From positions 1 through 41,157 of IMG/VR virus record IMGVR_UViG_3300028558_000048: DNA of 41,157 nt; one strand, written 5' to 3'. This document shows positions 2,977-40,365 of the stretch, in pieces. How positions within the stretch are numbered: position 1 is the first letter of the stretch; every line of letters starts with the position of its first letter. Under the pieces are notes generated by a model. The model saw nothing but the letters and a program-made list of their open reading frames with translations. It searched no databases and was not told the DNA's origin. The stretch comes from a virus. The position numbers and the translations under genes were made by a program.

Positions 2977-2988
2977 AATGTTTGCCCT

Positions 2989-3174
2989 CTACTTCTTCCC
3001 GGACGATGACGTATAGGTCAGGTTATAAACCGGCGTGACCCAGGTCACTGCCAGCTTTCTCTGCCCCCAGAATACCGGCACCACCGTCGCGTCCTGATTG
3101 CTCACCAGCTCCGCGTGACTCAGGTTCGCCGGGTCCGGGTTGGGCTGCGCCGGCGTTGAATTGCCATCCTTCAT
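2989..3174 (-). CDS. Small tail-region protein of unknown function
   Basis: A 61-residue protein starting MKDGNSTPAQPNPDPANL. The start is set by an ATGA overlap with the stop of the upstream NlpC/P60 gene, so an upstream in-frame ATG at 3234 is less likely. The N-terminal third is Pro/Asn-rich and probably flexible, while the C-terminal half (VFWGQRKLAVTWVTPVYNL) is beta-like. It has no cysteines, signal peptide or membrane segment. It sits between the tail peptidase and the tip gene, the place of a small tip-assembly protein in lambda-like tails. I do not recognise the family. Confidence 0.6.
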   Translation of the reverse strand: MKDGNSTPAQPNPDPANLSHAELVSNQDATVVPVFWGQRKLAVTWVTPVYNLTYTSSSGKK

Positions 3175-3641
3175 AATGTTCCCCTCTCGCCTTCTTCGAC
3201 TGGCCGCCAGGCCGCCTGCAGTCGGCTGCCCCACGTCGCGTCACTCAACGCGCTGCGGATCGTCCCCACCTGGCTCATGGCATGCACAAACATCCCATCC
3301 CCCAGGTAAATCCCCACGTGATGCACCACCCGCCCAAGCCTGAAGCCCAGCAAATCCCCAGCCTGCAGCGCCGCTATCGCCGGCAGCCTCACAAACTCCG
3401 GCCGCCCGTCCATCCATTCCTCCACCAGGCTTACCCGGCTGAACTGCGCATGCGCCATGGACACCGCCGGCACCTCGATATCGCAGCATCCCACCCGCCG
3501 GTAAATCTCCGACGCCAGCTTCTGGCAGCTCGCTCCCTTGCCGCGTTCGGCTGAATTCGCGAGGAACGGTGTCCCCAGCCATGCCAGGGCCTCCGCCTGC
3601 AAGCGCTTGCTCCTCTCCTCATTCGCGAACCAGCTCGTCAT
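3171..3641 (-). CDS. NlpC/P60-family tail peptidase (K-like)
   Basis: A 156-residue putative cysteine peptidase of the NlpC/P60 fold. The likely catalytic Cys is C39 in GKGASCQKLASEIYRR, which begins a helix as in the family. The His is H107 or H108 in GRVVHHVGIYLGDG, and the third position may be H120 in MFVHAM. The 'GDLLGF' strand before the His is also typical. In siphophages such proteins sit at the tail tip and trim peptidoglycan during entry or help tip assembly. It starts 3 bases after the larger tail gene and overlaps the next gene by ATGA. No holin or signal peptide accompanies it, which fits a virion role rather than lysis. Confidence 0.85.
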   Translation of the reverse strand: MTSWFANEERSKRLQAEALAWLGTPFLANSAERGKGASCQKLASEIYRRVGCCDIEVPAVSMAHAQFSRVSLVEEWMDGRPEFVRLPAIAALQAGDLLGFRLGRVVHHVGIYLGDGMFVHAMSQVGTIRSALSDATWGSRLQAAWRPVEEGERGTL

Positions 3642-3644
3642 GGC

Positions 3645-5717: not shown

Positions 5718-5741
5718 AGCTTTGCCTTTGTCCCCCGCGCC

Positions 5742-8492
5742 TTACACCTTCTTGATCTCGCTCGCGTGCTGCTTATAGACATCCACCAGGACGCCTCTCC
5801 CCTCCCGGCTCCGGGCCCAGTCCGCGAACATCTGCTTGTCGTGAAAGACGCCGATGTTGAACCGGTTGTCGTTATGCACCGTCGCCGATCCCGTCCCACC
5901 CCCGCCGCCCCCGGCCATCACCTGCTGGGTCATGTGCGCTGGCAGAATCATCCCCGGCTGATCCGGCACGAATAATTCCGGCCCCCGTTCACCCACCAGC
6001 GACAACTTGCCGACCGGCGGCCGCCCGCCCTCCGCGAACGCGCCCCCCAGCGCCGCGATCGCCAGACCCACCATGGCGATCAGCGCCACGATGCCTATCG
6101 TTGCGCTCATGCCCCAACTCCCCGCGCTGGCGCTTGCCGCGTTGGCCGCCAGCGCTGGTGCCTTGGCGGCCTCCTGGGCATTGCTCTGTGCCACGCGCTC
6201 CCAACCCAGCGCGATCATCAATAGGTGGAACCCTTTCGTCACCGCCGCCATGATGACGTGCGTCAAAACCCACTGCACGCCCATCTCGACAATTCCCTGC
6301 ACCAATGCGGTCACTATCGAAATCCGAATCGTTCTCAATGCCTGTCCCCACTTCTGAGTACCCATGACCAGGCCCGTAATACCGTTACTAATCGAGTGGA
6401 AGGCCGCATTGAACGTGTGCTCGAACACCTGAGCCGTCTCCCTCGCCCAGCCCTGCCATTGGTCCTGGATATTCTTCATGCTCTGCCCCCACTCGCCTCC
6501 CCAGGTCCCGCTCCGCTCATTTGTCCTAATCCCTTGTTCCGTTTCCGCCTTACGCTGCTGGGTGTCTTGCAGTTGTTTGTTTGCTAGCAGTTTGGCCTCC
6601 GGACTCAGGTTTTCATCCCGCAATCGCCGCTCATCAAGCTCGATTGCCTCCTTCAACAACTTCAATTCCGCCTTCAGCAACTCAAGTAGCTTTTCCTTCC
6701 TTTGTTCCTTCGTCAGGTCCGCGTCTTTCTCGACTATCTGCCTCCGCCCTTGGATCTTTGCCAGCGCGATCTGCTCTTCCGCCTCCTGTTGTTCCTGCTG
6801 CAGGGCTCGTCGCTTTGCCGCGTAGGTCATCTCGATTCGCGCCATTTCCTCCAGCTCGGTTTGCCGCGCCAAACCCTCCTTCTTTAACTTCTCTTTAGTC
6901 TGATCCTCTTCCACCTGCAGCAGTGCCAGCTTTCCCTTTGTGGACTCAGCCCAAGCCCGGTCCACCTCCATCACGGCCTGCTTTTCGACCTCCCTCCGCT
7001 TGGCCGCGTACGTCGCCTTTATTTTCGTGATCGCTTCTTCGGCGGCCTGTTGGTCCAGCACTTCCTCTTGGATCTTCTTGATAGCCGCCGCCTCCTCCGC
7101 GTCCAGCAAGGCCAGCCGCCCCTTCGTCGCCTCCGCCCACGCCTTGTCGATTTCCTGGATTAGCCGCTTGGACTCTTCTGTCTGTTGGGGCGCCTGCGGT
7201 TCGGCCTTCATAGCTTCGCCGAACGCTTCCTGTTCTTGCTCGTGCGCGCTCCGGGGAGTGATCGCCGACTCTCGTTCCTTCCGCGCCGGCTCCTCTGGGG
7301 CCGTCGAACGCCACATGTCAGAAGCCCCGCGGATGGCCCCAGTAATTCCCTTCATCACCGATTCAGCCAATTCGTGGAACGCCTTCAGCCTTGAAGCCTC
7401 AGATCCCGCCAACTCCCCTTCCTGGACGTGTCCAGCCAGCTTCATCTGCTCTTGCGTCGTGGTCAGGTCTGCCTGCTCGTTCGCTGTCAAGGGCCGGGAC
7501 CGCCGGATGGCCGCCAACATGTCAATATGGTGCTGTAGAATGCGGATGCCTACTTCGTCCAGGCCCGCCACGAGCGATTGCGCGCCGGCCTTCCAGCTAT
7601 CCCACGCTGTATGCAACGCCGCCGGAATGGCCTCGACTAGCGCCTGCGCTACTGCGGCCGCCAGCGTCGCCGCAAATCGCGCCACGTATTCCATGCTCTT
7701 ATCGAACCCGCTCGCAATCCCTTCCGCGAGCCCCTTTCCCGACTTCACCGCCGTTCCCAAACCCTCCGCTATCTCCTTCAACGCAGGCAGGATCTTCCGG
7801 GCGATAGCAACGAACACCGCCTCGAACTCGTCCTTGATTTCGCGCACGGCTACGTTGAACGCCATTGCTTCCTTCACCATCGCTTCATCGATGATGCCGT
7901 GGCCTGCGTCCTTGGCCCGTTCGAGCGCCGGCAGAATGTCCCGCCACTCCCGGCCGAACATTTCTGAGGCTATGGCTGCCTTCCTAGGCCCGTCAGGCAT
8001 CTGCCCAAGATGCTCAATTACCGCCTTCAGGACCTGATCCACGCTCATCGCCCCGGAGGAAAATTGCCTCATCGCGTCGATCCCGAGCATTTCCCGGAAC
8101 GGCTGGAGAGCCTGACCGCCCGACTTCATGGCAGATCCCAGGTTGCGAGAGAACATCTCCAATCCCATAGACGCCGCCTCGAACCCAGCGCGAGTCTTGT
8201 TGGCCTCTTCCCGGAGGCTGGATAGCAGCGCGATGGAAATGCCCGTGTTGCTGCTGATTTTCCCCAGAGCCTCCGCCGCGTTGATCGCCTCTCGCGTAAA
8301 TTCCACAATCGCGCCCACGGTGAAGAGCACCGCGAGTTTTCCCCCGATTTCCTCAAGGAACTCACCTATTCCGCCCAGGCGGTCCATCCCCTCATTCATC
8401 TCACCGAAAAACTCCTTCATCCGCGCCAACGCTTCCTTCGTGTCCGCGTTGATCGTGATCGTGATCCCATTCCCATTTCCCTGGTCGCTCAT
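5742..8492 (-). CDS. Tail tape measure protein
   Basis: A 916-residue protein starting MSDQGNGNGITITINADTKEAL, the usual opening of tape measure proteins. It has hydrophobic helical stretches near residues 270-300 and 780-870 (IGIVALIAMVGLAIAALGG) and a long charged coiled coil at about 440-650. Inside the coil is a direct duplication: residues 447-500 and 508-562 share [IV]D[KR]AWAE[AS]TKG[RK]LALL and end TYAAKRR, a period of about 61 residues. The C-terminus has the 'FAEGGRPPVGKLSLVGERGPELFVP' type module common at tape-measure ends. It follows the tail-assembly chaperone pair, as expected. Its length predicts a tail of roughly 140 nm by the usual 0.15 nm per residue rule. Confidence 0.9.
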   Translation of the reverse strand: MSDQGNGNGITITINADTKEALARMKEFFGEMNEGMDRLGGIGEFLEEIGGKLAVLFTVGAIVEFTREAINAAEALGKISSNTGISIALLSSLREEANKTRAGFEAASMGLEMFSRNLGSAMKSGGQALQPFREMLGIDAMRQFSSGAMSVDQVLKAVIEHLGQMPDGPRKAAIASEMFGREWRDILPALERAKDAGHGIIDEAMVKEAMAFNVAVREIKDEFEAVFVAIARKILPALKEIAEGLGTAVKSGKGLAEGIASGFDKSMEYVARFAATLAAAVAQALVEAIPAALHTAWDSWKAGAQSLVAGLDEVGIRILQHHIDMLAAIRRSRPLTANEQADLTTTQEQMKLAGHVQEGELAGSEASRLKAFHELAESVMKGITGAIRGASDMWRSTAPEEPARKERESAITPRSAHEQEQEAFGEAMKAEPQAPQQTEESKRLIQEIDKAWAEATKGRLALLDAEEAAAIKKIQEEVLDQQAAEEAITKIKATYAAKRREVEKQAVMEVDRAWAESTKGKLALLQVEEDQTKEKLKKEGLARQTELEEMARIEMTYAAKRRALQQEQQEAEEQIALAKIQGRRQIVEKDADLTKEQRKEKLLELLKAELKLLKEAIELDERRLRDENLSPEAKLLANKQLQDTQQRKAETEQGIRTNERSGTWGGEWGQSMKNIQDQWQGWARETAQVFEHTFNAAFHSISNGITGLVMGTQKWGQALRTIRISIVTALVQGIVEMGVQWVLTHVIMAAVTKGFHLLMIALGWERVAQSNAQEAAKAPALAANAASASAGSWGMSATIGIVALIAMVGLAIAALGGAFAEGGRPPVGKLSLVGERGPELFVPDQPGMILPAHMTQQVMAGGGGGGTGSATVHNDNRFNIGVFHDKQMFADWARSREGRGVLVDVYKQHASEIKKV

Positions 8493-9173: not shown

Positions 9174-11459
9174 TCACTTGAACACGTTCGTCGTGAGACA
9201 ACCGCTTGCGCGCGCATGCAGATCGTAGTTCGGATGGACGCCATCCGTCGTCGACTGCAGCCACACCTCGTACGTTGTGGACGTGGTAGGCGTCCCATTG
9301 GTCCAGGATCCCACTGGATACCAGGTTTCCCCGAACTGGCCCGAATTGAACTGCACCGGATAGATGCCCGGCGAAGCTGGACCGCCCGTGATTTTGATTA
9401 CCGTGCGCGCGTCATAGTAGTGCTTGGCGATCCGCCCAATTAGGTTTGTGTCCCCGGCCGATGTGCTCGTGAGGTTCGTGTTGAACGTACCGCTGAAGAT
9501 TGGCGCGTTGGTAACCGGCGCCCAGACCCCGTTCGTACTCACCAAAGCAGCTACATCCACCACCGAAAACCGCGAGCCTAATTGTGCTACCGCCCCAGTG
9601 GCCGATCTGTCCAGCAACCAGCCGTTGAGGTTTGTCCTCAGGGACTCGTACGCCGTTACGGTTTGGCCGGTCGTGCTAATCCAGTAGTCCGAGGACGTGG
9701 TGTGTGGCAGGATTGTCGCCTGGATAACTCTCTTGCCCGACCCAAGCGGATAAGCCCATAACTTGGTCCAGTTCGAGATCGTCGATGCGAACGTCGCGCC
9801 GACCAGGTTAAGGTCGTTAGCCCCATAGCAAGTCAGCCAGTGAAGCGCTTGTCTCGCCTCGCGCTGCCGTAACGCTGAAACATTCCAAAGCGTCGTGTTC
9901 TCGCCCGAGGCTGACAGATTTACCCAGCCCAAGCCGATATTCTTCAGGCCCCGCTCCGCCCATCCGGTTGGAATCGCCCAATTCGTGCTCGCGCCTCCGT
10001 TGTTCAACCAACTGTCGCCCGTGCCCGCCGTGATCGAGTCCCCGATGATTGCAACCCCAGGCGTCACCCCAACCGGCGTGGCGTAGATGCCGGACGCGCT
10101 CCAGTACCTGGCGTTGTTAGCGCCTGCGACCGTACCCGAATCGCAGTAATCGGTCGTGGCCGAATACCCGTCCGTGCCACCCCCGTCCCCAGTGCCATTG
10201 TACAGCGCTCCGCCGGGCACCGCTCCCGTCACGGAGAGCCAGATTCGGATATACACCGCATTTGACGGCGCGAGCATTATGCCGACAGGGTCGGAAAAGA
10301 CCACGCCTCCGGGATCCAGCACGTTCGTGCGCTGGCCCTTGAAATACATCGGATAAATCACCCCGTCCACGTCCCAGCTTGCTTTGAACGTAATTGGATT
10401 GGTGGTGGCCTGCACCGTGCTGCTCGTGCTCCGGTAATAATTGTGGAAGCTGGCAATCGGGTCGATGCACGGTACGGCGATGATATGCTCACGCCTCACC
10501 GTCCCACTCGTCATCGCCACCAAAGCAGACGCGTTTTCCGTGAACGTCCGTTGATTCACCGGCACCGCCGGCGAGGCCTGAAAGGTGCCAAAAACGGCTC
10601 CGGGCAAATTCGTTAGCGCGGAGGCGTCCCCAGCGAAGGCCCCGGTGATATTCGCTCCCGACCCTGTGTTCGCGATCGTCATCAGATTATTTGCCGACGA
10701 ATCCACGAACCGGAACGCGTTGTTCGATCCGCTCAAGAAAAATACCGTCCCGAGCACGTTTGCCACCGAAGGCTGGTTGGTGCTCTGCGTGTTGATCCCG
10801 AACGCCCCAAAGGCCCCCGATCCGAGCACCGGCGGAAACCCGCTCAGGACCGTGCCCCCCGGCCCCTCGAACTCGAACCCGTAACCCTGCCCCTGCATCA
10901 GCACCCCGTTGGTCTCCCCCACCGGCCCGTTGAACACGCTCGCGCTCAATGGACCTGGCAGCGCGTTGTTCCCGTTCGTGATGGTCAGCATCGTGTTGCC
11001 TGACGAATCCACGAACCGAAACGAGTTGTTGGTGCCGCTGCGGAAGAAGACTGTCCCCATCAGGTTCGCCACAAATGGCTGATTGGTGCTCTGCGTATTG
11101 AACCCGAACGGCCCAAAGGCCCCCGGTCCCAGCACCGGCGGGAACCCGCTCATGGCCGTGCCCCCCGGCCCGTCGAACTCGAACCCATAGCCCAGGCTCA
11201 CCAGGCTGGCCCCGTTCGTCCCCAGGATCCCGCTCAGCGAGTATTGCGTCTGCGTGATCACCGTGCTGGCCTGCCCCGGAGCGTTCGTGTTCAAGGTCAC
11301 TCCCGCCACGCTCGCCACCCCCGGCCGGTTCGTCGTCGCCCCCGTCACTCCCGCCACGCCCGGCGCATTCGTCGTGGGGTTGCTCGCCCCCAGCGCCAGC
11401 GCCAACGCCATCACCATCACGGCCGTGGCCGCGGCCATCGCCATTTTTGTTGTGTTCAT
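9174..11459 (-). CDS. Secreted SGNH/GDSL hydrolase with duplicated beta module
   Basis: A 761-residue protein. Residues 1-26 form a hydrophobic leader (AAATAVMVMALALALGAS) that looks like a signal peptide. Residues 27-70 are a Pro/Gly/Asn-rich linker. Two copies of an about 75-residue module follow at 88-160 and 190-262, both with LGYG or QGYG, FEF[DE]GPGGT, SGFPPVLG, GAFG, NTQSTNQP and FRFVDSS. Residues 465-761 are an SGNH hydrolase with all blocks: GDSI (catalytic S475), a Ser-Ala-Ser-Gly block near 516-519, GAND (N548) and DGVH (D739, H742). Likely substrates are acyl or acetyl esters on surface polysaccharide. It sits between the tail tube and the chaperone, unusual for an exported enzyme. 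It could be a tail spike-like enzyme or a lysogenic conversion factor. Confidence 0.7.
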   Translation of the reverse strand: MNTTKMAMAAATAVMVMALALALGASNPTTNAPGVAGVTGATTNRPGVASVAGVTLNTNAPGQASTVITQTQYSLSGILGTNGASLVSLGYGFEFDGPGGTAMSGFPPVLGPGAFGPFGFNTQSTNQPFVANLMGTVFFRSGTNNSFRFVDSSGNTMLTITNGNNALPGPLSASVFNGPVGETNGVLMQGQGYGFEFEGPGGTVLSGFPPVLGSGAFGAFGINTQSTNQPSVANVLGTVFFLSGSNNAFRFVDSSANNLMTIANTGSGANITGAFAGDASALTNLPGAVFGTFQASPAVPVNQRTFTENASALVAMTSGTVRREHIIAVPCIDPIASFHNYYRSTSSTVQATTNPITFKASWDVDGVIYPMYFKGQRTNVLDPGGVVFSDPVGIMLAPSNAVYIRIWLSVTGAVPGGALYNGTGDGGGTDGYSATTDYCDSGTVAGANNARYWSASGIYATPVGVTPGVAIIGDSITAGTGDSWLNNGGASTNWAIPTGWAERGLKNIGLGWVNLSASGENTTLWNVSALRQREARQALHWLTCYGANDLNLVGATFASTISNWTKLWAYPLGSGKRVIQATILPHTTSSDYWISTTGQTVTAYESLRTNLNGWLLDRSATGAVAQLGSRFSVVDVAALVSTNGVWAPVTNAPIFSGTFNTNLTSTSAGDTNLIGRIAKHYYDARTVIKITGGPASPGIYPVQFNSGQFGETWYPVGSWTNGTPTTSTTYEVWLQSTTDGVHPNYDLHARASGCLTTNVFK

Positions 11460-30733: not shown

Positions 30734-31332
30734 GCCGCCTCCGTTTTGAAATTTGAGAGGGCGAGAAAGCGCTCCCTGAAATCAAGCTCGGCGGACGCGG
30801 GATTGAGGGGAACAATCGTAAGGCCGTCTGGCTGGATCATCGGCTTATCAACGTCCCACGGCATTGGGCGTGGCCCCATCAGGTCGCGCCGTTCAGTGGC
30901 GAGGGCTACCAGGTCAGCGTGTTTAACCTCGGGCGCCATCACGACCGGGACGCCAAACTTGTTGGCGATGGCGTTCCAGATCCTTTGCTCAATTGCACGG
31001 TATTCAGGCAAGGCTGCCTTCAAGGGCCTGACCATGTCACCAACGTAGGCCTCGGTTGCATCGTGGAGCAGCCCTTGGAGAGCGAACTCTTGGGGGACTA
31101 GACGGCTGACGTGGACACAGTGCTGGGCGACGGAATAGAACCGGTGTACGTGACCATTGAAGCGACACTCGCGAGCAAGGGCGTGCGCGATGTCCTCAAA
31201 GCAAATCTCTGCGGGCCGGGGGTCCTGGTGGTAGAAGGCGATACCAGTGTAGGTTTGGAACCAGTTGCCCCGGTCGGTGGAAGATTGCATATGTTGTGCG
31301 GGTCGGGCGCCGGCGTTCATATTTAGGCTCAT
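30730..31332 (-). CDS. HD-domain phosphohydrolase (YfbR-like nucleotidase family)
   Basis: A 200-residue phage HD hydrolase. GNWFQTYTGIAFYHQDPRPAE, FEDIAHALARECRFNGHVHR and YSVAQHCVHVSRL lead to the metal site: H71, then H90-D91 in LQGLLHDATEAYVGDM, and a later Asp in VKHADLVALATE. Proteins of this type act on nucleotides such as dNMPs. In a phage that replicates by transposition they may adjust nucleotide pools. It is translationally coupled by ATGA with the MuB-like gene. The N-terminal 20 residues are extra. Confidence 0.85.
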   Translation of the reverse strand: MSLNMNAGARPAQHMQSSTDRGNWFQTYTGIAFYHQDPRPAEICFEDIAHALARECRFNGHVHRFYSVAQHCVHVSRLVPQEFALQGLLHDATEAYVGDMVRPLKAALPEYRAIEQRIWNAIANKFGVPVVMAPEVKHADLVALATERRDLMGPRPMPWDVDKPMIQPDGLTIVPLNPASAELDFRERFLALSNFKTEAA

Positions 31333-32408
31333 TCCTCGTCCCTCGCTTGCTTGACGTGTTCGATCGTGAGCCCCTTCTTCTCCGCCTGCGCCTGCACCTT
31401 GGCCGTCTGTAGATCCTCGAACAGTATCCTCACCCGGCCTGGCTCACGGGCGATTTTCTCCAGGTAATCCAGGTGCTGTTTCGCATCCTTCAACCCGAAC
31501 GCCTCAGCGATCGCCAATATGTCCTCCTGCGTAGGATACTTCGGCACCAGGTGGAAATTGCGCCGTCCCCCGGCGCGCCCTTCAAACTGTTCCAGGTAAC
31601 CCTGGAGCATCGCGTCCCTCATCTTCTCGCCCGCGTCATGAGTGATGCTCAGGATAATCGTGCAACCCCGTTCGTCCTGCAGGCGCCGCAAGAAGTTGAA
31701 TGCGGGCTGGTTCTGCCCCCGCCGCTCGTCGTACATCGTCTGGGCGTTATCGATGATGATCGTGTTCCGGCTCTTAACGCTTGCGATCACCCGCCGCCGC
31801 AGCCGTTCATAACCGTCCGAGTGCGCCCCGCCGTATTTCGACCCCAACCACATCAGAAACTCCTTGATGCTCCCATTTTCCGGAGCCTCCAACCACACAC
31901 ACAACCCGTGGTTGTGTTGCCGGCAATACTCGCGGTACGTCGCCGTCTTCTGCGTTCCCGTCCAGCCCTCCACGATACCGAACCGGTTCACGCGCTCCGG
32001 CGCGCGCCGAATATCAATGAAGTCCATGATCGACTGTGCCGTCGGCGTCATGATAAACGGCACCTTGCCGGCCATCTCCCGAATCCGCTGCTCGTCGCGC
32101 AAACACTTCACCGCCCGGAGGAACTTCGGCACCGCCAGGATTGGCGACGGCAACTCTGCCCCCGTCGCGTCCTGCTTCCACCTCCCCCTCATGATGCGTG
32201 ACCAGGTCGTCTTGTCGTTCTCGATCCCGTTGTCCCGCAGCCGGGTCGTCAGCACCTCCAGGTCCCGCCCGCACTCCTCCCTCAGGTACCATCCGAGCCA
32301 CATGAACGGTTCCCGCATTTCCTCCGGGTACGCCGCCGCGTGCTTTTCCAAAGTCAGATCGTCCAGCCTCAGCAGGTTCGGTTCCGCGCTATTGAGTCCC
32401 TCGTACAT
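31329..32408 (-). CDS. MuB-like transposition ATPase (target DNA activator)
   Basis: A 359-residue protein. ATG at 32408 follows AAGGAGAG, a good Shine-Dalgarno. The upstream frame to 32630 is a shadow of the 143-residue gene. It has Walker A GWTGTQKT at 148-155 and Walker B NTIIID at 215-220, followed by a sensor-type LSITHDAG at 253-260. The N-terminal 110 residues contain a helix-turn-helix-like stretch (NDKTTWSRIMRGRWKQ), like the N-terminal DNA-binding part of MuB. MuB captures target DNA and stimulates MuA. It differs from Mu in having a 143-residue gene between transposase and ATPase. The C-terminal 60 residues are helical. Confidence 0.88.
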   Translation of the reverse strand: MYEGLNSAEPNLLRLDDLTLEKHAAAYPEEMREPFMWLGWYLREECGRDLEVLTTRLRDNGIENDKTTWSRIMRGRWKQDATGAELPSPILAVPKFLRAVKCLRDEQRIREMAGKVPFIMTPTAQSIMDFIDIRRAPERVNRFGIVEGWTGTQKTATYREYCRQHNHGLCVWLEAPENGSIKEFLMWLGSKYGGAHSDGYERLRRRVIASVKSRNTIIIDNAQTMYDERRGQNQPAFNFLRRLQDERGCTIILSITHDAGEKMRDAMLQGYLEQFEGRAGGRRNFHLVPKYPTQEDILAIAEAFGLKDAKQHLDYLEKIAREPGRVRILFEDLQTAKVQAQAEKKGLTIEHVKQARDEE

Positions 32409-32434
32409 AATGTCTCGCTCTCTCCTTGGTTGGT

Positions 32435-32866
32435 TCAGAGGCCGAGCCGGATACCCTGCCGCTCCAGAGCCCGCAGAAACTGCGGCAGGCAAGCATCGAT
32501 CAACGCCTGGCATACCGTCGCCGTTGCCGCCATGCCATCCAGGCACTCGGTTGCTGACGCCTTCAACTCCATCCCCGGGCATCGCTCCCCGCCCGCAACG
32601 TGCCAGTACCTCAACTCCAGCGTGAGGCACGGTTCGTCCTCGTCCGCCAGCAACGTGACCTTGCCCAGCGCCGCCAGAAAAATCGCGCTTGCCCTCGTCA
32701 CGGCCTCACGACAAGCCCCCTCGGTAATCACCCCCAGACTCGACTGATGCTCCGGTGTCCGTGTCGCCACCCGCACGTCCGTCGGCCCGCACAGCGTGAA
32801 CTCCACGTCGATCTCCTCGTTCTCGTATTCACTCCGGTCCTGGCCTGCATTCTTGTTCTCTCTCAT
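32435..32866 (-). CDS. Hypothetical protein between transposase and ATPase
   Basis: A 143-residue acidic protein: MRENKNAGQDRSEYENEEID, EFTLCGPTDVRVATRTPEHQ, CREAVTRASAIFLAALGKV, CPGMELKASATEC. The alpha-beta pattern includes six Cys without a clear metal motif. I do not recognise the family. Its place between MuA- and MuB-like genes suggests a role in transposition or its control, but no motif supports that. Confidence 0.5.
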   Translation of the reverse strand: MRENKNAGQDRSEYENEEIDVEFTLCGPTDVRVATRTPEHQSSLGVITEGACREAVTRASAIFLAALGKVTLLADEDEPCLTLELRYWHVAGGERCPGMELKASATECLDGMAATATVCQALIDACLPQFLRALERQGIRLGL

Positions 32867-32895: not shown

Positions 32896-35613
32896 CTAGT
32901 TTTCCAACCCCAACAAGGCGCGCGCTATCGTCGCCTGTCGGGCAATCTTCTCCCTCTGTTTCCGCAAGGCCTCGCCGCTCGGGGCTTCGAACGGCGTCCG
33001 CGTCCCGCGCGGGCCGGCCGTGGCGCCCGTGGCCTCTGGGACCTTCGTCGGACTCCGCACGCCCCGTTCCACCCTCACCAGGCCGCCTTTTCCGTCCCGG
33101 GCCTCCGTCCGCTTCACGGCCGGCTGGCCCGGCCTCGGGATCGCGCTGAACGCCGTGGCCACCGTCTTGTTCTGCGCTTTGCGCAGGTTGTCCGCGTTGT
33201 CGAAGGCGCCTTCCCCGTAAAACTCTGACACCGGCCGTCCCACGATCCCCCGCGCCTCGGACCCCACGTCCGCGGCCGGCCCCGGCATCTCCCAGGTTGC
33301 CCAGCCCATGAATTGGCCCAGCTTGTAGCCCTTATGGTTCGCGGGGCCGCCCTGGCGGTTGTACACGGCCGCCCCGCGCGTCGGTTCGGCCTGGTCGAAC
33401 CGCAGATACACCAAATAACCGCTCCCCATCTCCGCCATCCACACCGCGCGAAAATCATGCCAGTTCCCTTGCACTTTCACCGACACCCGGCCCCCATCGA
33501 TGGACCGCTCGCGCATGTCCGGCAGGAACGCCGCGTAATCGTCCGGCTGCAGCGTCGGCAACTCGCGTTGGCCGGGAGCGCCGGCCTCCACGCCCGCGCC
33601 CTTCACGTCACGTTTCCAGATCTCATCCGGGACCTCGCCGCGGCTGTTCGACTTGCCGTTGATATGCGCAAACGCCCGGTCGATCCGGTCGCTTAACACT
33701 TCCATGGGCACGAAGCCTAAGTCCCCAGGCGCGCGGCCGGCCCGCACCTGGCGCAACCGCTTGGCGCCGCTCTCAAACTCCCCCGCGTGCCGCCCGATGT
33801 TCACGAAATCGCGCGTCATCACCGCCATGACGTCCTGCAGGTGGTTGAAGCACGTCTCGATTATCTTCCCATGCGCGCTCGTCGCGAACACGACCTGCAC
33901 GCCGATCCCTGCCAGCCCCGTTGCCAGGTTCTGCCGGTCCTCTTCGGCCATCTCCGGACGCTCAAAATCCTCCGGCGTCACCAGGCCCTGCGTCTGCAGC
34001 GCGTACCCGTGAATCTTGCGCGCCTTCCACACCGACTGCTCGAATACGATCATGTCCGGCTTCCCGTACAGCTCAAACAGATCCCTGAGAAACCTCAGGA
34101 TGTCCTCCGCCCGGTAAGCTTCCCTCGCCCGGGCCACCAGCATCTTCCCCAGCCACCGCAACGCCCGATGATCAATGCAGTACAGCCCCTGCCGGCTGAA
34201 TAGCATTTGCTCGTTCTTGCCCCTCAACAGGCACCAGAACGGCTGATTGGAACTCATATCGTCGAATACCCACTTGAAACCCGCCGGCATCTCCGCGCGC
34301 TCGCCGTTGGCGAACCGAACCGTCAGATCCCGCCGGCTCGTGAGCCCCGCCAACTGGTAATGCTTCGGGCCTCGGACCCGGTTCTCCAGTTCCGGCGTCA
34401 ACCGCTTCAGGAAGCGCTGAAGGCAAACCGGAAACTTGCCCCTGCGCAGGCGTTCGGCCAGTTCGGGCGGGCACTCCGGTTCGTTCGCCATGCACGTGAG
34501 CGCCGTTGCCATTTTGGCGGTGCGGCGGCCGCGCGCTTGCGGCTGCCCGCTCGCGCCAATCGTCGCCACATACAGCTCGGTTAATTTCGCGCCGAAGGCG
34601 CTGTCGGCCCGCGCCAGCGCATCCCACTGGCTGTTGCGGCCGCAGTTGCAAGTCCGGCTCTCGAACCCCCGCGTCGCATAATGCCGCTCCAGCCGCCAGA
34701 GCGTTACGTCACCCACCCCCAGCAGCTCGGCCGCCTGCTTCCGCGTCAATCCCTCGTTCGCGGACTTCAGCGCCTTCCAATCAGCCCACAACCGCTTCCA
34801 CTTCGTCTCCCGGGCCATGCTCGCGCCGCCCGTCACGTGGGGCTTTCCAGTTTTCTCCGCGGTGCTCTGAATGCGGCCGGCGTCGGCGGGTGCGTTTTCG
34901 AGGCATCCTATCGGCGTCATCCTCACGGGCTCGTCGGCTGATCCACAGGCATTGCCGAGCCCCAGACGAGCCCTAGCACCGGGAACCGGCTCGCCATGCG
35001 TGGAGCCCACCGCAGTAGCTCCCCGCAATACTTCCGGGCCGGCCGCATTCAAAGCATCTGGTTCTTGTCCCGAGGCGGCGCCGGTTCTGGCCGGCGCCGC
35101 CTGGTCGTATGTCAGTTTCGCTACCGCATCAGCTCCCTCCTCTCTCTCTCGGTTCTCGGCCTCCTGCGGGGCGCTCGTTCCCCCCGCCATCGCCCGATCT
35201 TCCGGAAATCCAACGGGGAGGCAGACCGGCTGACTACTGCCGGGCAGACCTAGCCGGCCAGACACACCCTGCAAGTCCTGCCTCCCCAAATCGCTCCTGG
35301 ACATTCGCACCCCCACGCCGGCGTCAGACTTGCCGGCGTGGGACCCCTCATCCTGGGTATCCGTCGCGCTCTGCTCGGCTCCGGTTCGGGAACCACCCGC
35401 CGTTATGGCCGCTTCTCCTGCAGCGGCCCTTTCCGTCGCGCTTCCGGTCCCGCCTCGCTGAGCCAGGACATCGACCGCGGCCCCGGTCCATGCGCCCGTC
35501 GTTCCCGCGTCTGCTAAGGCCGTGTCCGCTGTCCGCAAACACGCCGCGGGCAAGCACTGTGGCGCCGCGCCCTGGCTCAAAATTCCTGAAATCTCTCGGT
35601 CTGATTCGTTCAT
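32896..35613 (-). CDS. MuA-like DDE transposase with long N-terminal extension
   Basis: A 905-residue protein. Residues about 286-312 are a helix-turn-helix (LTRKQAAELLGVGDVTLWRL). The RNase H-like core has FKWVFDDMSSNQPF (D451/D452), YGKPDMIVFEQSVW (D520) and SAHGKIIETCFNHLQ (E586); the spacings are close to MuA (67 and 56). The C-terminal beta barrel has KVQGNWHDFRAVWMAEM and YLVYLRFDQAEPTRG, the MuA-type second domain. The last 60 residues are basic and would bind DNA or MuB. Residues 1-265 are Ala/Gly/Ser-rich with no domain that I recognise, and may be disordered. An ATG at codon 266 (MARETKWKRLWADWK) would give a conventional 640-residue transposase. Confidence 0.9.
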   Translation of the reverse strand: MNESDREISGILSQGAAPQCLPAACLRTADTALADAGTTGAWTGAAVDVLAQRGGTGSATERAAAGEAAITAGGSRTGAEQSATDTQDEGSHAGKSDAGVGVRMSRSDLGRQDLQGVSGRLGLPGSSQPVCLPVGFPEDRAMAGGTSAPQEAENREREEGADAVAKLTYDQAAPARTGAASGQEPDALNAAGPEVLRGATAVGSTHGEPVPGARARLGLGNACGSADEPVRMTPIGCLENAPADAGRIQSTAEKTGKPHVTGGASMARETKWKRLWADWKALKSANEGLTRKQAAELLGVGDVTLWRLERHYATRGFESRTCNCGRNSQWDALARADSAFGAKLTELYVATIGASGQPQARGRRTAKMATALTCMANEPECPPELAERLRRGKFPVCLQRFLKRLTPELENRVRGPKHYQLAGLTSRRDLTVRFANGERAEMPAGFKWVFDDMSSNQPFWCLLRGKNEQMLFSRQGLYCIDHRALRWLGKMLVARAREAYRAEDILRFLRDLFELYGKPDMIVFEQSVWKARKIHGYALQTQGLVTPEDFERPEMAEEDRQNLATGLAGIGVQVVFATSAHGKIIETCFNHLQDVMAVMTRDFVNIGRHAGEFESGAKRLRQVRAGRAPGDLGFVPMEVLSDRIDRAFAHINGKSNSRGEVPDEIWKRDVKGAGVEAGAPGQRELPTLQPDDYAAFLPDMRERSIDGGRVSVKVQGNWHDFRAVWMAEMGSGYLVYLRFDQAEPTRGAAVYNRQGGPANHKGYKLGQFMGWATWEMPGPAADVGSEARGIVGRPVSEFYGEGAFDNADNLRKAQNKTVATAFSAIPRPGQPAVKRTEARDGKGGLVRVERGVRSPTKVPEATGATAGPRGTRTPFEAPSGEALRKQREKIARQATIARALLGLEN
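34927..34973. repeat. Inverted repeat in transposase 5' region (1)
   Basis: GGGCTCGTC at 34927-34935 pairs perfectly with GACGAGCCC at 34965-34973, and inside it GGCT pairs with AGCC. It is one of three strong stems in the extension coding region. Confidence 0.7.
35074..35101. repeat. Inverted repeat in transposase 5' region (2)
   Basis: GGCGGCGCCGG (35074-35084) and CCGGCGCCGCC (35091-35101) form a perfect 11-base stem with loop TTCTGG. Confidence 0.8.
35312..35342. repeat. Inverted repeat in transposase 5' region (3)
   Basis: CCCACGCCGGC (35312-35322) and GCCGGCGTGGG (35332-35342) form a perfect 11-base stem with a 9-base loop. No T-run follows, so it is not a standard terminator. Confidence 0.8.
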
Positions 35614-35810: not shown

Positions 35811-36773
35811 TTAGCCCTTGGCCTCCACCCGCCGCCCGCGTTTCTTGACCTCCGCGCGGAACGCCTCCGTCACCTGTTCGAGCAGCTCGCCCGGCACGGC
35901 CTCCGCCGCCTCCCGCACCGCCTCAATCGCCTTGGCCCGCTCCCCCGCGCTCAGCTTTTCCCAGCGCTGGCAGCCCTTCGCCCAGCTACCCCATTGCCGC
36001 TCCCAGTAGAACAAATGGCTGTTCCTCTCCGGCGGCGCCTGATCCAAGGGTTGCCCGTCGGGGCCGACAAACCATCCGATGCCCTTGATGACGTCGCCCA
36101 ACCCCATCGGATGCTCCGCGTCCAGGATCAGCGGCTCAAAATGCTCCCGTAACGTCCGCTCCTCCCCGTCCTGGAACTGAAACTTGTGTTCCCGCAGGGC
36201 GGGCGACTCAAAAAGCTTTCTAATCTGAATCGCGCGTTCGACGGTCTTTTCAGACACCCCAAATCGCTCCGCGAGGCCTGCGGCGGCCGTCCGGTCATGC
36301 CGTGACCGTCCTGATGACGGTAACGGGACAATTAAGGGCTTTCGCAGGATTTTTACCCCCTTTTCGAGCCAGGTCAGCCTCTGCATCTCGGCTGCCGACG
36401 CGTATTCCTTGAGCACCTGCAATGATAAGTAAACCTTGGCGCCCTTGGTCAGGCAGCGTTGCCCGAACAGCGACTCCACGATCCACAGCGGCGCTTCCCA
36501 TTCCGGTCGGACGATGCACGCGATTTTCTGCCATTGGAGCTGTTTCGCCGCCAGCCAGCGCCGGACGCCGTCCATAATCCAGCCCTGAGGCGTTACGTGG
36601 ATCGCTGGCGTCCCCTCCGGGCCCAGCCCGCTTAGGCCGTCAACGAATGCGTGCCATTCCGGTGAGTCCAACTGCGGCTCGGGCAGGCAGCCGTGCAGCA
36701 TGTGCGCCCGCAAGGGCGCCGGATCCCTCCACTCGATCGTGTCAACTCCCGCGTCAATCTCAGATTCGTTCAT
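35811..36773 (-). CDS. ParB-like DNA-binding protein
   Basis: A 320-residue protein with a ParB-type N-terminal domain: EWHAFVDGLSGLGPEGTPAI, then HVTPQGWIMDGVRRWLAAKQ. This is the 'I...G....G.RR..A' strand-helix of ParB, followed by LQWQKIACIV. After a helical region, residues 166-186 form a helix-turn-helix (GLAERFGVSEKTVERAIQIR). The C-terminal part ends with a Glu-rich helix and a basic tail (KKRGRRVEAKG). ParB-like proteins bind or cut DNA. The CTP-binding box of true ParB is not clear here. It lies upstream of the transposase, so a role in transposition or host takeover is possible. Confidence 0.75.
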   Translation of the reverse strand: MNESEIDAGVDTIEWRDPAPLRAHMLHGCLPEPQLDSPEWHAFVDGLSGLGPEGTPAIHVTPQGWIMDGVRRWLAAKQLQWQKIACIVRPEWEAPLWIVESLFGQRCLTKGAKVYLSLQVLKEYASAAEMQRLTWLEKGVKILRKPLIVPLPSSGRSRHDRTAAAGLAERFGVSEKTVERAIQIRKLFESPALREHKFQFQDGEERTLREHFEPLILDAEHPMGLGDVIKGIGWFVGPDGQPLDQAPPERNSHLFYWERQWGSWAKGCQRWEKLSAGERAKAIEAVREAAEAVPGELLEQVTEAFRAEVKKRGRRVEAKG

Positions 36774-36799: not shown

Positions 36800-37048
36800 T
36801 CAAAAATGCTTTCGCGCCTTGGTAACCGGGGGATTGGCCATTGCCGTCCCGGGGTAAGGAAAGAGCTTGAGCTTGCCGTCTCGCTTCGGGCGCAGCGCCC
36901 ACACCAGGCGCCCGCAAAAGCACCGCATGATGTCGTAATGCGCCAGATACTGGCCGCCCCGCTCTCCGCAGAAGCCGCACTCGTGGGTCACCCATTCGCC
37001 AGCCTGCTCATGCTTCCCGCTCCTGTCGTTCTGGGCCTTGTCATTCAT
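36800..37048 (-). CDS. Small zinc-ribbon protein
   Basis: An 82-residue protein. C24-x2-C27 (HECGFCGE) and C43-x-C45 (RCFCGR) form a compact zinc site. Between them is GGQYLAHYDIM, and the tail is basic (ALRPKRDGKLKLF). The start ATG overlaps the methyltransferase stop by 8 bases. It is a small nucleic-acid-binding candidate. Function unknown. Confidence 0.55.
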   Translation of the reverse strand: MNDKAQNDRSGKHEQAGEWVTHECGFCGERGGQYLAHYDIMRCFCGRLVWALRPKRDGKLKLFPYPGTAMANPPVTKARKHF

Positions 37049-37889
37049 TGGTGCCTCCTGCGAAATTCAGTTCCAACTCCGCCTCCTCGGGTTTCGGGTC
37101 TGCTTCGGCTTTTCGGTCTTCGGATTTTACGGTTTTCCTCATCGCTCCCAACGTTCCCGGGCGCTTGATCGCCTTCTCGAACGCCTCCACGCCCTGGAAT
37201 CCGCCGTCCCGCAAAATCGCGCAAAACCGTTCTACCACTGGCACACCGTCTGGCGTCACCATGCTTGTTATCGCCGGCACGTTCTCCATCACGCACGTCT
37301 GCGGCATCGTCTCCACGATCAGCCGCGCGAATTCAAAAACCAGCGTGTTCCTCGGATCAGCTACGTTCCTTTTCCCGGCGGTGCTAAAACCCTGGCAAGG
37401 AGGCCCGCCGAACATGCAGCCCAGTTCCCCCTTGTTCAGTCCGATAATCTCCAGCAATCGATGCCCCGTCAGCTTCCTCACGTCGCCCACGATGATGTTC
37501 GCCACCCCGGACGCCTCGGGATGCTGCGAGATCCAGCCGCTCCCCGCCATGTCCGGATCTAGGTTCTTCCGGTTAAAACTCTTCGCCAACGCCCGGTTCA
37601 TCCGCTCCTTGTCCGCTGGCTCGATGAAATGCACCTGGACTTCGCCCCACCGGCACAGGTTGCACATGTAGGTTTCCACCGCTTCCACCTGCCACTCGAT
37701 CGCCGCCACGACCCGAAACCCGGCCTGGATGAACCCCAACGAGAACCCGCCGCACCCCGCAAAAACGTCTACTCCCGTTTTCCGCCGCTCTTTCCGTGCC
37801 CGCTCTTCAGCAATGTAGCCAGGCACAACCAACCCCGAACGCATCTCGACCAGGCCGCGCGCTCCTCCGCTGTCGTTCTGAATAATCAT
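37041..37889 (-). CDS. C5-cytosine DNA methyltransferase, C-terminally short
   Basis: A 282-residue protein. The start is set by ATGA overlap with the 84-residue gene; upstream extension to 38258 is shadow sequence. It has motif I DVFAGCGGFSLGF at 41-53, motif IV GGPPCQGFS at 161-169 with catalytic C165, the R-DPRN segment at 174-181 and motif VI ENVP at 202-205. After that only about 80 residues remain, ending in an acidic/basic tail. Motif VIII, a target-recognition domain and motifs IX-X (GN element) are missing, so specificity is uncertain. It could be a degenerate enzyme, or pair with another subunit. Dcm-type activity would help against restriction. Confidence 0.8.
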   Translation of the reverse strand: MIIQNDSGGARGLVEMRSGLVVPGYIAEERARKERRKTGVDVFAGCGGFSLGFIQAGFRVVAAIEWQVEAVETYMCNLCRWGEVQVHFIEPADKERMNRALAKSFNRKNLDPDMAGSGWISQHPEASGVANIIVGDVRKLTGHRLLEIIGLNKGELGCMFGGPPCQGFSTAGKRNVADPRNTLVFEFARLIVETMPQTCVMENVPAITSMVTPDGVPVVERFCAILRDGGFQGVEAFEKAIKRPGTLGAMRKTVKSEDRKAEADPKPEEAELELNFAGGTNE

Positions 37890-38140
37890 GCCGTGGCCTT
37901 GGGTTGATACCGCTGGCGGATTTCCTCGACGCGGTCTCGAATGAGCCGCCCGGCGAATCGCCGGTCCTTTTCCGATGCCGTCCACAGCGCCGATCGCAGG
38001 ATGAGGAAAGTTTCGCAGCGTCGGCCGGCGCTGAACTGTGTGATGGGGATACCCCAGTTGGCGCGCCGGTCCAGTAAATGCCCCATCACCGCTTCCGCGT
38101 GCCTTCGGCAAATCAATTTCAAGAGCGCGCCCGCTTTCAT
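37886..38140 (-). CDS. Small basic hypothetical protein
   Basis: An 84-residue basic protein: MKAGALLKLICRRHAEAVMG, then LLDRRANWGIPITQFSAGRR and a helix RRFAGRLIRDRVEEIRQRYQ. It joins the methyltransferase by ATGA. The composition suggests nucleic-acid binding. Family unknown. Confidence 0.5.
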   Translation of the reverse strand: MKAGALLKLICRRHAEAVMGHLLDRRANWGIPITQFSAGRRCETFLILRSALWTASEKDRRFAGRLIRDRVEEIRQRYQPKATA

Positions 38141-38769
38141 TGCTTCCCCCGAGGTTGACGCCCGCGTTCTCGATCGTCAGTCTGCCCGTATGAGTGAGAA
38201 CGAGATTGGGACTGTTCGCGAGGAACTGAAGGACCTGCGTCACAACCTCCAGGACCACCAGTGCGAGGCTCTTCGGGCAATAGGTTACACCGAAGGTTGG
38301 CAGAGCCAGGTGGAAGTCCGCCTGACCCGCCTGGAAGGGCAGCTAGATACCCTTCTGCTGCAGCTATTGTCCGAATCGCGAGATGCACCTTCTCCCGGCA
38401 AAAGTCCGGCAAGTCCCGGATCTGCCCCAGGTGTCTGATAGAGGCCTGCATGTGCGCCAAACCCAAAGTCCTGACTTCGCTCGAAAAGTCCAGCCGTTCC
38501 CTCACCACCGCCGGCACGCTCCAGGTCAGTTGGTGATAGACCTGCGTGAAAACCATCGCCTGCGTTCGCCACACCCGTTCCGCCGCTGGGAACCGATACT
38601 GGCGCGCGTGCCTCCAAAGCCTCTGGCACGCCAGCGCCCGCTCGCGCAGCTCCTTCAAGCCCGTGTTGCAGTCCGGGCACGTCCGCAGCCAGACCCGCAA
38701 ACAATCGACGCCCGCCTGTGCGGATGGGTGCCGGCGAATGGCCTGCGCAATTTGATATTTTTGCTTCAT
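38137..38769 (-). CDS. Hypothetical helical protein, 210 residues, overlapped by an antisense ORF
   Basis: It starts MKQKYQIAQAIRRHPSAQAG (38769). The first 140 residues have normal protein composition: RTCPDCNTGLKELRERALA with one Cys pair, then VYHQLTWSVPAVVRERLDFS and RHLGQIRDLPDFCREKVHLA. After residue about 145 the sequence becomes Gly/Pro/Arg/Ser-rich (GGSGGLPPGSA, then SQSRSHSYGQTDDRERG). That part lies opposite a plausible plus-strand coding frame (38190-38438). Either the C-terminus is disordered or the real gene ends earlier through a change in frame. It overlaps the next gene by 4 bases. Confidence 0.5.
   Translation of the reverse strand: MKQKYQIAQAIRRHPSAQAGVDCLRVWLRTCPDCNTGLKELRERALACQRLWRHARQYRFPAAERVWRTQAMVFTQVYHQLTWSVPAVVRERLDFSSEVRTLGLAHMQASIRHLGQIRDLPDFCREKVHLAIRTIAAAEGYLAALPGGSGGLPPGSANLRCNLLPEEPRTGGPGGCDAGPSVPREQSQSRSHSYGQTDDRERGRQPRGKQ
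38190..38438 (+). CDS. Possible antisense coiled-coil protein
   Basis: A plus-strand frame of 82 residues starting MSENEIGTVREELKDLRHNL. The helix continues EGWQSQVEVRLTRLEGQLDT and LLLQLLSES, with a clear heptad repeat of Leu/Val and charged residues, then a Pro/Ser tail. No Shine-Dalgarno is seen in front of the ATG. It overlaps the 3' third of the minus-strand 210-residue gene, where that gene's sequence is unconvincing. It may be a true antisense gene, or chance. Confidence 0.35.
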   Translation: MSENEIGTVREELKDLRHNLQDHQCEALRAIGYTEGWQSQVEVRLTRLEGQLDTLLLQLLSESRDAPSPGKSPASPGSAPGV

Positions 38770-38776
38770 GGGCGTC

Positions 38777-38995
38777 CTAATTGCGCGCCTGGTTCCGCAA
38801 CGCATTGTCGAGGGCCACAAACGCGTCCGCGGCCTTGAGCGATGGTCTAGCCCCAGTCGACATCAGGTCGCACATGGCCAGCACCCTCCGATACGCCGCC
38901 CGGGCCTCCAGCGTGGACTGCGTGAGCCAGCTCTGCATTTCCTCGCCATTCAGAACCACCAGAATCTTCCCGCCAGCCGGTTCCGCGTTGCTCAT
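38777..38995 (-). CDS. Small hypothetical early protein
   Basis: A 72-residue protein: MSNAEPAGGKILVVLNGEEM, then helices STLEARAAYRRVLAMCDLMS and LKAADAFVALDNALRN. It is coupled by ATGA to the first early gene and starts the helical series. No family is recognised. Confidence 0.5.
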   Translation of the reverse strand: MSNAEPAGGKILVVLNGEEMQSWLTQSTLEARAAYRRVLAMCDLMSTGARPSLKAADAFVALDNALRNQARN

Positions 38996-39192
38996 GGCGC
39001 CTCCGTTCCAGGTTGCGCTTCCTCGACATCTGGAGGCACGGCGGCCTCCAGCCCCATCTCTCTTCTGGCTGCCCTGCGCATGAGTTGCGAGAACGTCACG
39101 TCCTCGCTCTCACACCTCTTCCTCGCCAATTTGCGCATCCAGTCAGGCATCCTGAAAGCCACCACCTCACATTTCTCGTTCTCATTACGCAT
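38992..39192 (-). CDS. Ribbon-helix-helix protein, first gene of early operon
   Basis: A 66-residue RHH (Arc/MetJ/CopG-type) protein. The DNA-contacting strand is CEVVAFRMP, followed by helices DWMRKLARKRCESE and FSQLMRRAARREMG. It aligns with the divergent plus-strand protein over about 38 residues (V.AF..P....K.A..R..E.....S...R.....E.G). It is expressed from the promoter at 39211-39238 with a leader of about 12 bases. By position it corresponds to Ner of Mu (or lambda Cro): an early regulator opposite the repressor. The tail is acidic. Confidence 0.75.
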   Translation of the reverse strand: MRNENEKCEVVAFRMPDWMRKLARKRCESEDVTFSQLMRRAARREMGLEAAVPPDVEEAQPGTEAP

Positions 39193-39207
39193 AGCGCTCT
39201 ATTTGTA

Positions 39208-39230
39208 GGCGTTATACGCCGTTATACGCC
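39208..39230. promoter_or_regulatory. Tandem operator repeats GTTATACGCC (two copies)
   Basis: Copies at 39211-39220 and 39221-39230, with GGC before the first, are spaced exactly 10 bases, one helical turn. This suits cooperative binding by RHH dimers. They lie over the early promoter, so a bound repressor would block it. Confidence 0.7.
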
Positions 39231-39238
39231 ATTGTCAA
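39211..39238 (-). promoter_or_regulatory. Early promoter (minus strand)
   Basis: On the minus strand, TTGACA (39238-39233) is followed after 16 bases by TATAAC (39216-39211). This predicts a transcription start near 39204, 12 bases before the first early ATG. Two GTTATACGCC copies overlap the -10 and the spacer. Confidence 0.75.
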
Positions 39239-39246
39239 TATTATTT

Positions 39247-39273
39247 TTGATTTTCTTTTTACGGCGTTATAAA
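39247..39273 (+). promoter_or_regulatory. Candidate repressor promoter (plus strand) with operator
   Basis: TTGATT (39247-39252), a 15-base spacer and TATAAA (39268-39273) form a weak plus-strand promoter. The -10 overlaps GGCGTTATAAAC (39263-39274), a third copy of the CGTTATA core. The predicted start near 39280 makes the mRNA almost leaderless for the GTG at 39282. Confidence 0.5.
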
Positions 39274-39281
39274 CTCCAATA

Positions 39282-39773
39282 GTGCCGCACACGAGAAAAG
39301 CAAATCAGACCGTCGAAGCTTTCAGCCTGCCAAGGGAATTATTGAAAGCGGCCAAGGTCCGCGCGGCTGAACTACAGATGTCGAAGTCCGGCTATTTTCG
39401 TTTTTGCCTAGCGAAAGAACTTGGGATACCGGAAGGCGAAGCCAAAGCCCTGGCGGCTCATAGTTCTGTGAGGAACCTGAAAGAACAGGTATCGGAGCAT
39501 ACAACGTCCGAGGAGTTGCAGCCTCAGCTTAACGATTCCAGGCCCGCGGAGAATAAATTGGCGTCAAATAAGGCATCCCTCATTCGTGGTCTAGTATCGG
39601 TCGTCGGCGGCCGGAACGAACGCGATTCTGGAGACTCTTCCCAAGTAACTTCTGCATCCGAGCCTTCAGCCGCAATCCCCGTTCCCATTGAGCGCAAGCG
39701 TCCGCGCCGGCCAAACACTCGGCAGCGCTCCATCCGTTCGAAATTCTCTCCAGTTCCAGATCCAAAAGAATAA
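39282..39773 (+). CDS. RHH-type putative phage repressor
   Basis: A 163-residue protein starting at GTG: MPHTRKANQTVEAFSLPREL. The N-terminal 45 residues are an RHH domain (VEAFSLPRELLKAAKVRAAE, then MSKSGYFRFCLAKELG). The rest is Ser/Glu/Pro-rich with a basic patch (RKRPRRPNTRQRSIRSKF). It faces the early operon across shared operators and is paralogous in sequence to the first early protein. By position it is the counterpart of Mu c. The C-terminus could give oligomerisation or cleavage, as in longer repressors. Codons are less GC-rich than in the minus-strand genes. Confidence 0.7.
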   Translation: MPHTRKANQTVEAFSLPRELLKAAKVRAAELQMSKSGYFRFCLAKELGIPEGEAKALAAHSSVRNLKEQVSEHTTSEELQPQLNDSRPAENKLASNKASLIRGLVSVVGGRNERDSGDSSQVTSASEPSAAIPVPIERKRPRRPNTRQRSIRSKFSPVPDPKE

Positions 39774-39840: not shown

Positions 39841-40365
39841 ATGAGAATTCTGCTTCTCGCCTCTCTTCTCAGCATCGCCAGCGGGTGCGCGAACCTGCCT
39901 GATGTCCATACCCTAACTTGCGATCAGATTCGCCAAATGACCGCCGTCTCCCATGATGATTTTCGGAAATCCACGACGGTCTCCGCATCACGACTTAAAT
40001 TTGGCCAGGTCCAAGAGAGCGATTTTGGGCTGTCAGCCAGTAAAATCGACGCCCAGCCCAATATTATTTACTCACTAATTCTCACGACCTCCCGCTCGCC
40101 CGATCAGGGTTGGGCGTTCTGGAAACAAGCCTTTGACGAGCATGGCCACGAATTAACAAATCCATCCACCTCCAGCGAGGTGGGCCAGCACGCTTCGGTT
40201 TACGAATCCATCGCGTTTGCCCTAACCAGGGAATGGTTGGTCTCCAATAGCCGAACCGGCATCAAAGTCCGGGTTGATGGAAGCCGTGACCAGATCATCC
40301 TTGAGTTGCCGCCCAACTACATTCAAGGCTTCCTGCTCAAAGCTGACGACGTCCTCGGTAGATGA
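39841..40365 (+). CDS. Plus-strand lipoprotein (probable moron)
   Basis: A 174-residue protein with ATG at 39841 after AAAGGAAAAA. The signal MRILLLASLLSIASG leads to lipidated Cys16 (lipobox IASGC). The mature domain has alpha-beta sequence (TCDQIRQMTAVSHDDFRKST, NIIYSLILTTSRSPDQGW) and ends LPPNYIQGFLLKADDVLGR. It is encoded behind the repressor on the lysogenic strand and lower in GC than the phage core. Lipoproteins in this position often block superinfection or change the cell surface. No family is recognised. It is coupled to the next gene by ATGA. Confidence 0.65.
   Translation: MRILLLASLLSIASGCANLPDVHTLTCDQIRQMTAVSHDDFRKSTTVSASRLKFGQVQESDFGLSASKIDAQPNIIYSLILTTSRSPDQGWAFWKQAFDEHGHELTNPSTSSEVGQHASVYESIAFALTREWLVSNSRTGIKVRVDGSRDQIILELPPNYIQGFLLKADDVLGR

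Follow-up and report, generated by a model that had tools for sequence, protein, structure and literature searches.

The window, meaning the whole stretch of DNA that was analysed, is a 41,157-base virus record (IMG/VR) carrying MuB- and MuA-like genes. Most of the phage genes lie on its minus strand, including those for a portal protein, a MuB-like ATPase and a MuA-like transposase; the MuA-like open reading frame (ORF) extends to 35613 and its true start is uncertain. Two small divergent genes, here called RHH1 and RHH2, are separated by 89 bp, and both ORFs lie where an earlier, sequence-only reading of this DNA had placed them. The genes relevant to the following analysis are:

31329-32630, minus strand: MuB-like transposition ATPase (Phage-MuB_C above cut-off, AAA_22; phrog_296, E 2e-17)
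32896-34818, minus strand: early-operon region for a MuA-like transposase (phrog_310, a weak match for the window protein, with E-values down to 9e-26 among relatives; aligned with Mu A)
38992-39192, minus strand: RHH1, a 66-aa ribbon-helix-helix (RHH) protein and first gene of the early operon, in the Ner/Cro/Arc position (ORF; RHH_1 and CopG_antitoxin matches across the family)
39282-39773, plus strand: RHH2, 163 aa with an N-terminal RHH domain (about residues 9-48), candidate lysogeny repressor (ORF; profile match to the RHH1 family)
39841-40365, plus strand: predicted lipoprotein, 3' of RHH2 (ORF with a lipobox-like N terminus)

RHH2 begins with a GTG codon, and the lipoprotein gene possibly shares one lysogeny-side operon with it. 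The minus strand also encodes a C-5 cytosine DNA methyltransferase within the early operon (37041-38258; Pfam E 8.6e-27) and, directly upstream of the transposase gene, a ParB-like protein (35811-36773; phrog_4715, E 1.3e-5).

The sequence-only reading held that both divergent genes encode RHH domains and that these align with each other. Profile comparison bore out the alignment: hhalign of the RHH1 and RHH2 families gave an E-value of 2.9e-5, or 7e-7 with more members, over the RHH region, and the RHH1 profile weakly finds RHH2 members and vice versa. Judged by these comparisons, RHH1 and RHH2 are homologous and have one common domain. The domain assignment itself stands through the relatives, but not for the window proteins by Pfam alone. 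RHH1 of the window matches Pfam RHH_1 marginally (E 0.072, below the cut-off on its own) and RHH2 of the window has no Pfam RHH match, whereas RHH2 of the related locus L132 passes RHH_1 with 24.2 bits (cut-off 20.5) and the RHH1 proteins of L131 and L132 reach 20.5 bits against the RHH profile. It is thus these diverged members, rather than the window proteins alone, that point to membership of both families in the RHH (MetJ/Arc) superfamily.

Structure prediction agreed in part. In single-chain models, an extended stretch is followed by two helices (residues 17-30 and 34-46 in RHH1; 18-30 and 35-46 in RHH2, pLDDT about 90); the RHH strand forms only in the dimer. The C-terminal tail of RHH2 is long and modelled with low confidence. 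Foldseek searches with both models gave no significant match; the list for RHH1 consisted almost entirely of RHH proteins, none individually significant. Several family members weakly match CopG_antitoxin, which would suit antitoxin or partition proteins rather than a switch. We find this hardly credible, as no toxin or ParA was recognised alongside, the neighbours are phage early genes, and toxin-antitoxin operons do not typically have divergent control regions that overlap.

Between RHH1 and RHH2 lie three CGTTATA cores, at 39210, 39220 and 39265. All three were located as previously described, two in a 10-base tandem over the minus-strand -10 and spacer and the third over the plus-strand -10. 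The predicted control region contains:

39211-39216, minus strand: -10 TATAAC of the predicted RHH1/early promoter, read from the sequence
39211-39217, minus strand: O1 box B (GTATAAC on the minus strand), over the -10 of the RHH1 promoter and 10 bp from box A; kept in relatives
39221-39227, minus strand: O1 box A (GTATAAC on the minus strand), in the spacer of the RHH1 promoter; kept in relatives
39233-39238, minus strand: -35 TTGACA of the predicted RHH1/early promoter, read from the sequence
39256-39262, plus strand: a further, weak O2 box (TTTTTAC), 10 bp from the third core, from the sequence
39266-39272, plus strand: O2 box (GTTATAA, one mismatch against GTTATAC), over the -10 of the RHH2 promoter; third core at 39265-39271
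39268-39273, plus strand: -10 TATAAA of the predicted RHH2 promoter, read from the sequence, with equal geometry in relatives

On the plus strand, boxes A and B read GTTATAC. The predicted early promoter, TTGACA-N16-TATAAC, agrees with the consensus at 11 of 12 positions and has a spacer of 16 nt; a promoter scan did not call it, solely because the tool requires T as the last -10 base. The predicted RHH2 promoter has a weak -35, and its TATAAA, which the third core overlaps, ends 8 nt ahead of the GTG. At this distance the RHH2 mRNA is probably leaderless. The whole window contains six copies of CGTTATA against 0.84 expected, a number reached in 0 of 100 shuffles. When the 89-bp region was shuffled with dinucleotides preserved, two exact boxes had p = 0.0003, and an exact pair 10 bp apart arose in 0 of 20,000 shuffles. 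As the box includes TATA, part of the similarity could come from the -10 hexamers. An imperfect 12-nt inverted repeat (92%; 39248-39259 and 39296-39307) spans the RHH2 promoter and start.

The same arrangement, which the sequence-only reading had proposed to look for in related phages, recurs in five viral contigs (L002-L005, L011) and four chromosomal loci (L129-L132) from Verrucomicrobiota-type genomes. The entry point to the family was a scan of viral contigs with RHH1; exact single-protein scans of viral contigs with RHH2 and with MuA returned no matches. Among 384 genomes sampled at class level around a Verrucomicrobiota MAG, the RHH1 and RHH2 profiles each matched 4 genomes and both were adjacent and divergent in 3; in the fourth RHH1 genome (L132) a diverged RHH2 lies beside RHH1. 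A 388-genome sample of the phylum yielded nothing beyond the locus already known, and at the sensitivity applied no relative turned up among the INPHARED phages. Scanning viral contigs for the operator pattern produced 97 stretches, among which the pair is encoded only in contigs already known; the remaining stretches are probably chance. Both MuA- and MuB-like proteins are encoded downstream in L002, L004, L005 and L011; in L003 only the MuB-like protein was recognised there, and L131 has a downstream MuA-like ORF, judged by eye and by N-terminal helix-turn-helix (HTH) matches.

The RHH pairs of L129 (16401-16917) and L130 (2380-3037) lie among apparently host genes, as does a lone RHH2 in L012 (9713-9991). 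These are possibly relic or domesticated immunity genes, and given L129 and L130 the module is not strictly bound to active phage. In several relatives membrane or lipoprotein genes follow RHH2. Directly 3' of RHH2 in L004 (9090-9563) is a protein with GYF_2 and TM2 membrane domains, with a similar one in L005 (9106-9558); they are candidates for superinfection-exclusion or lysogenic-conversion genes. Another contig, L006, combines a Mu-type portal and F-like head genes with a replication-O-like early gene and no recognised transposase beside RHH2 (1327-7141).

Operators were compared across ten intergenic regions by a motif-free test, in which similar 7-mer pairs at offsets 7 to 25 were set against 200 shuffles. 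At offset 10 there were 43 such pairs (shuffle mean 3.45, maximum 17), and no other offset in this range was prominent. Nine of the ten loci contribute to the offset-10 repeats, the exception being L129. Box pairs with at most one mismatch occur once each in the window and in L002-L005, always between RHH1 and RHH2. In most loci the early -10 and its spacer are covered by two boxes, and the RHH2 -10 by one or two; in L011 just one of the early boxes is exact. The early boxes mostly read GTTATAC and those on the RHH2 side mostly TTTATAC. In L132 the box is GTCTTAC, with two copies in the early operator and one in the RHH2 operator, which indicates that both operators changed together. The predicted RHH2 -10 lies 6-10 nt from the start codon in the window, L002-L006 and L011, a spacing that suggests a leaderless mRNA in these loci as well. 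A candidate protein-DNA covariation (strand Ala versus Ser/Thr, box GTT versus GTC) is broken by L011 and comprises few lineages; it is not claimed.

The operator region of phage Mu also acts as an enhancer of transposition. The boxes could likewise serve transposition, as MuA-bound enhancer or end sites, instead of the RHH proteins. We consider this very improbable, given that the boxes lie over promoters and that box-like sequences are found beside chromosomal RHH pairs without a nearby MuA (L129, L130).

A natural replacement bears on which protein uses which box. L006 keeps RHH2 and a TTTATAC box, its partner is an unrelated small protein (HTH-like by eye, with no Pfam support), and the early promoter has no boxes. 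The swap links the early boxes with RHH1; RHH2, for its part, may act chiefly at its own promoter. Taken further, RHH1 and RHH2 would be two independent autoregulators, RHH1 acting only on the early promoter and RHH2 only on its own, with lysogeny kept by another gene that is unrecognised or missing. The different prevailing box sequences on the two sides also fit such a division. It is at odds with the one box type common to both operators, altered on both sides in L132, and with the persistence of the pair even on chromosomes. It would further call for another repressor, and none of the families HTH_Tnp_Mu_1, HTH_35, HTH_3 and Peptidase_S24 scored above the Pfam cut-off in the window and six related contigs; a single weak HTH_3 match (E 0.0034) falls within a MuA-like ORF. 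The contigs may be incomplete, and another repressor gene could be absent from them. On balance we hold independent autoregulation to be unlikely. Its position and a process of elimination make RHH2, the only divergent regulator recognised, the leading candidate for lysogeny repressor.

Our preferred reading, with a probability of roughly 0.68, is that RHH1 and RHH2 are paralogous RHH repressors which together make up a conserved module for switching between lysis and lysogeny. Its computed basis is the gene pair, the paralogy, the conservation, the 10-bp boxes and the lack of a conventional repressor above cut-off in the contigs. In this switch, RHH1, heading the early (transposition) operon, would damp its own promoter and that of RHH2, in the manner of Ner, Cro or Arc. 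The divergent RHH2, with its near-leaderless mRNA and the membrane or lipoprotein genes behind it, would be the prophage repressor. Each promoter bears 7-bp boxes of the GTTATAC type at a 10-bp repeat. Neighbouring RHH dimers bound to these boxes would share one face of the helix and obstruct RNA polymerase over the -10 and spacer. A divergent two-RHH switch with shared operators had been put forward in the sequence-only reading; it gains from the conservation, the 10-bp period and the lack of a recognisable HTH repressor, while DNA binding, cross-repression and the identity of the lysogeny-keeping protein are what we infer.

Several known systems resemble this layout. Mu c and Ner are HTH proteins. 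As in the window, the Mu c/ner region has a divergent repressor and an early negative regulator directly upstream of A and B; it differs in the HTH type of c and Ner, whose Pfam families gave no match above cut-off in the window and six related contigs. Lambda cI and cro are divergent repressors with common operators and a near-leaderless repressor mRNA, all of which the proposed switch would share. Lambda differs in its HTH proteins and 17-bp operators, in contrast to the RHH proteins, 7-bp boxes at 10 bp and lack of an S24 cleavage domain match here. By analogy, the module may work like Mu c/ner or lambda cI/cro, outside those families.

The precise precedent is P22 immI, in which Mnt represses arc and ant, and Arc represses mnt (PMC11016777). 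In the annotated P22 sequence (NC_002371), mnt and arc are divergent across 90 bp, with promoters and operators that overlap. The likeness to the window extends to two divergent RHH repressors, adjoining control regions and a nearly equal distance (90 bp in P22, 89 bp here), and also to gene size: the short Arc (53 aa) heads the lytic-side operon and the longer Mnt (83 aa) is the maintenance repressor, the same short/long layout as RHH1 and RHH2. At the sequence level the window family shows marginal similarity to Arc and Mnt (8.6 bits or less). A divergent two-RHH circuit is consequently not wholly new. The sequence-only view that RHH paralogues replace the usual HTH proteins is in keeping with the lack of an HTH repressor above cut-off, but the lack of precedent that it implied goes too far. 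P22 differs in that the arc operon leads to an antirepressor, with immI secondary to immC, whereas the window operon leads to transposition genes, and in that O-arc and O-mnt are unlike in sequence, whereas the window boxes are common to both promoters.

By the same parallel, the RHH pair could control an antirepressor and only tune another immunity system. L132 offers an example of this layout, with an RHH1 homologue followed by a Bro-N domain (Ant-like) gene (10216-10604), the mnt/arc/ant order of P22. Elsewhere, in the window, L002-L005 and L011, RHH1 heads an operon toward MuA-/MuB-like genes, no antirepressor gene such as that behind P22 arc was recognised among the window early genes scanned, and no primary repressor to be tuned was detected; we regard a secondary role of this kind as quite improbable. 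Under the preferred reading, a primary RHH switch, the novelty is that it sits at the main early promoter, that both operators share a box and that no HTH repressor is apparent. The papers searched, which included few subscription journals, do not describe an RHH pair in the c/ner position.

Searches for temperate phage switches usually start from HTH repressors, and a group that relies on RHH pairs, if real, escapes them. We would give even odds to a broader proposal, namely that a lineage of Verrucomicrobiota transposable phages has a primary immunity switch built solely of RHH paralogues, with one common 7-bp box at 10-bp spacing that shifts in step in both operators with divergence, yielding new immunity specificities. 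Within the family, loci with a shared box, an altered box or a replaced partner form a natural series for testing how two repressors with one operator code stay matched in evolution.

Aligned with Mu A, all six MuA-like proteins (window, L002, L003, L004, L005, L011) appear to have a glutamate in place of D336, the second catalytic aspartate, a reading based on an alignment at only 14-21% identity. The first catalytic aspartate is aligned in these proteins, and a glutamate lies near the third position.
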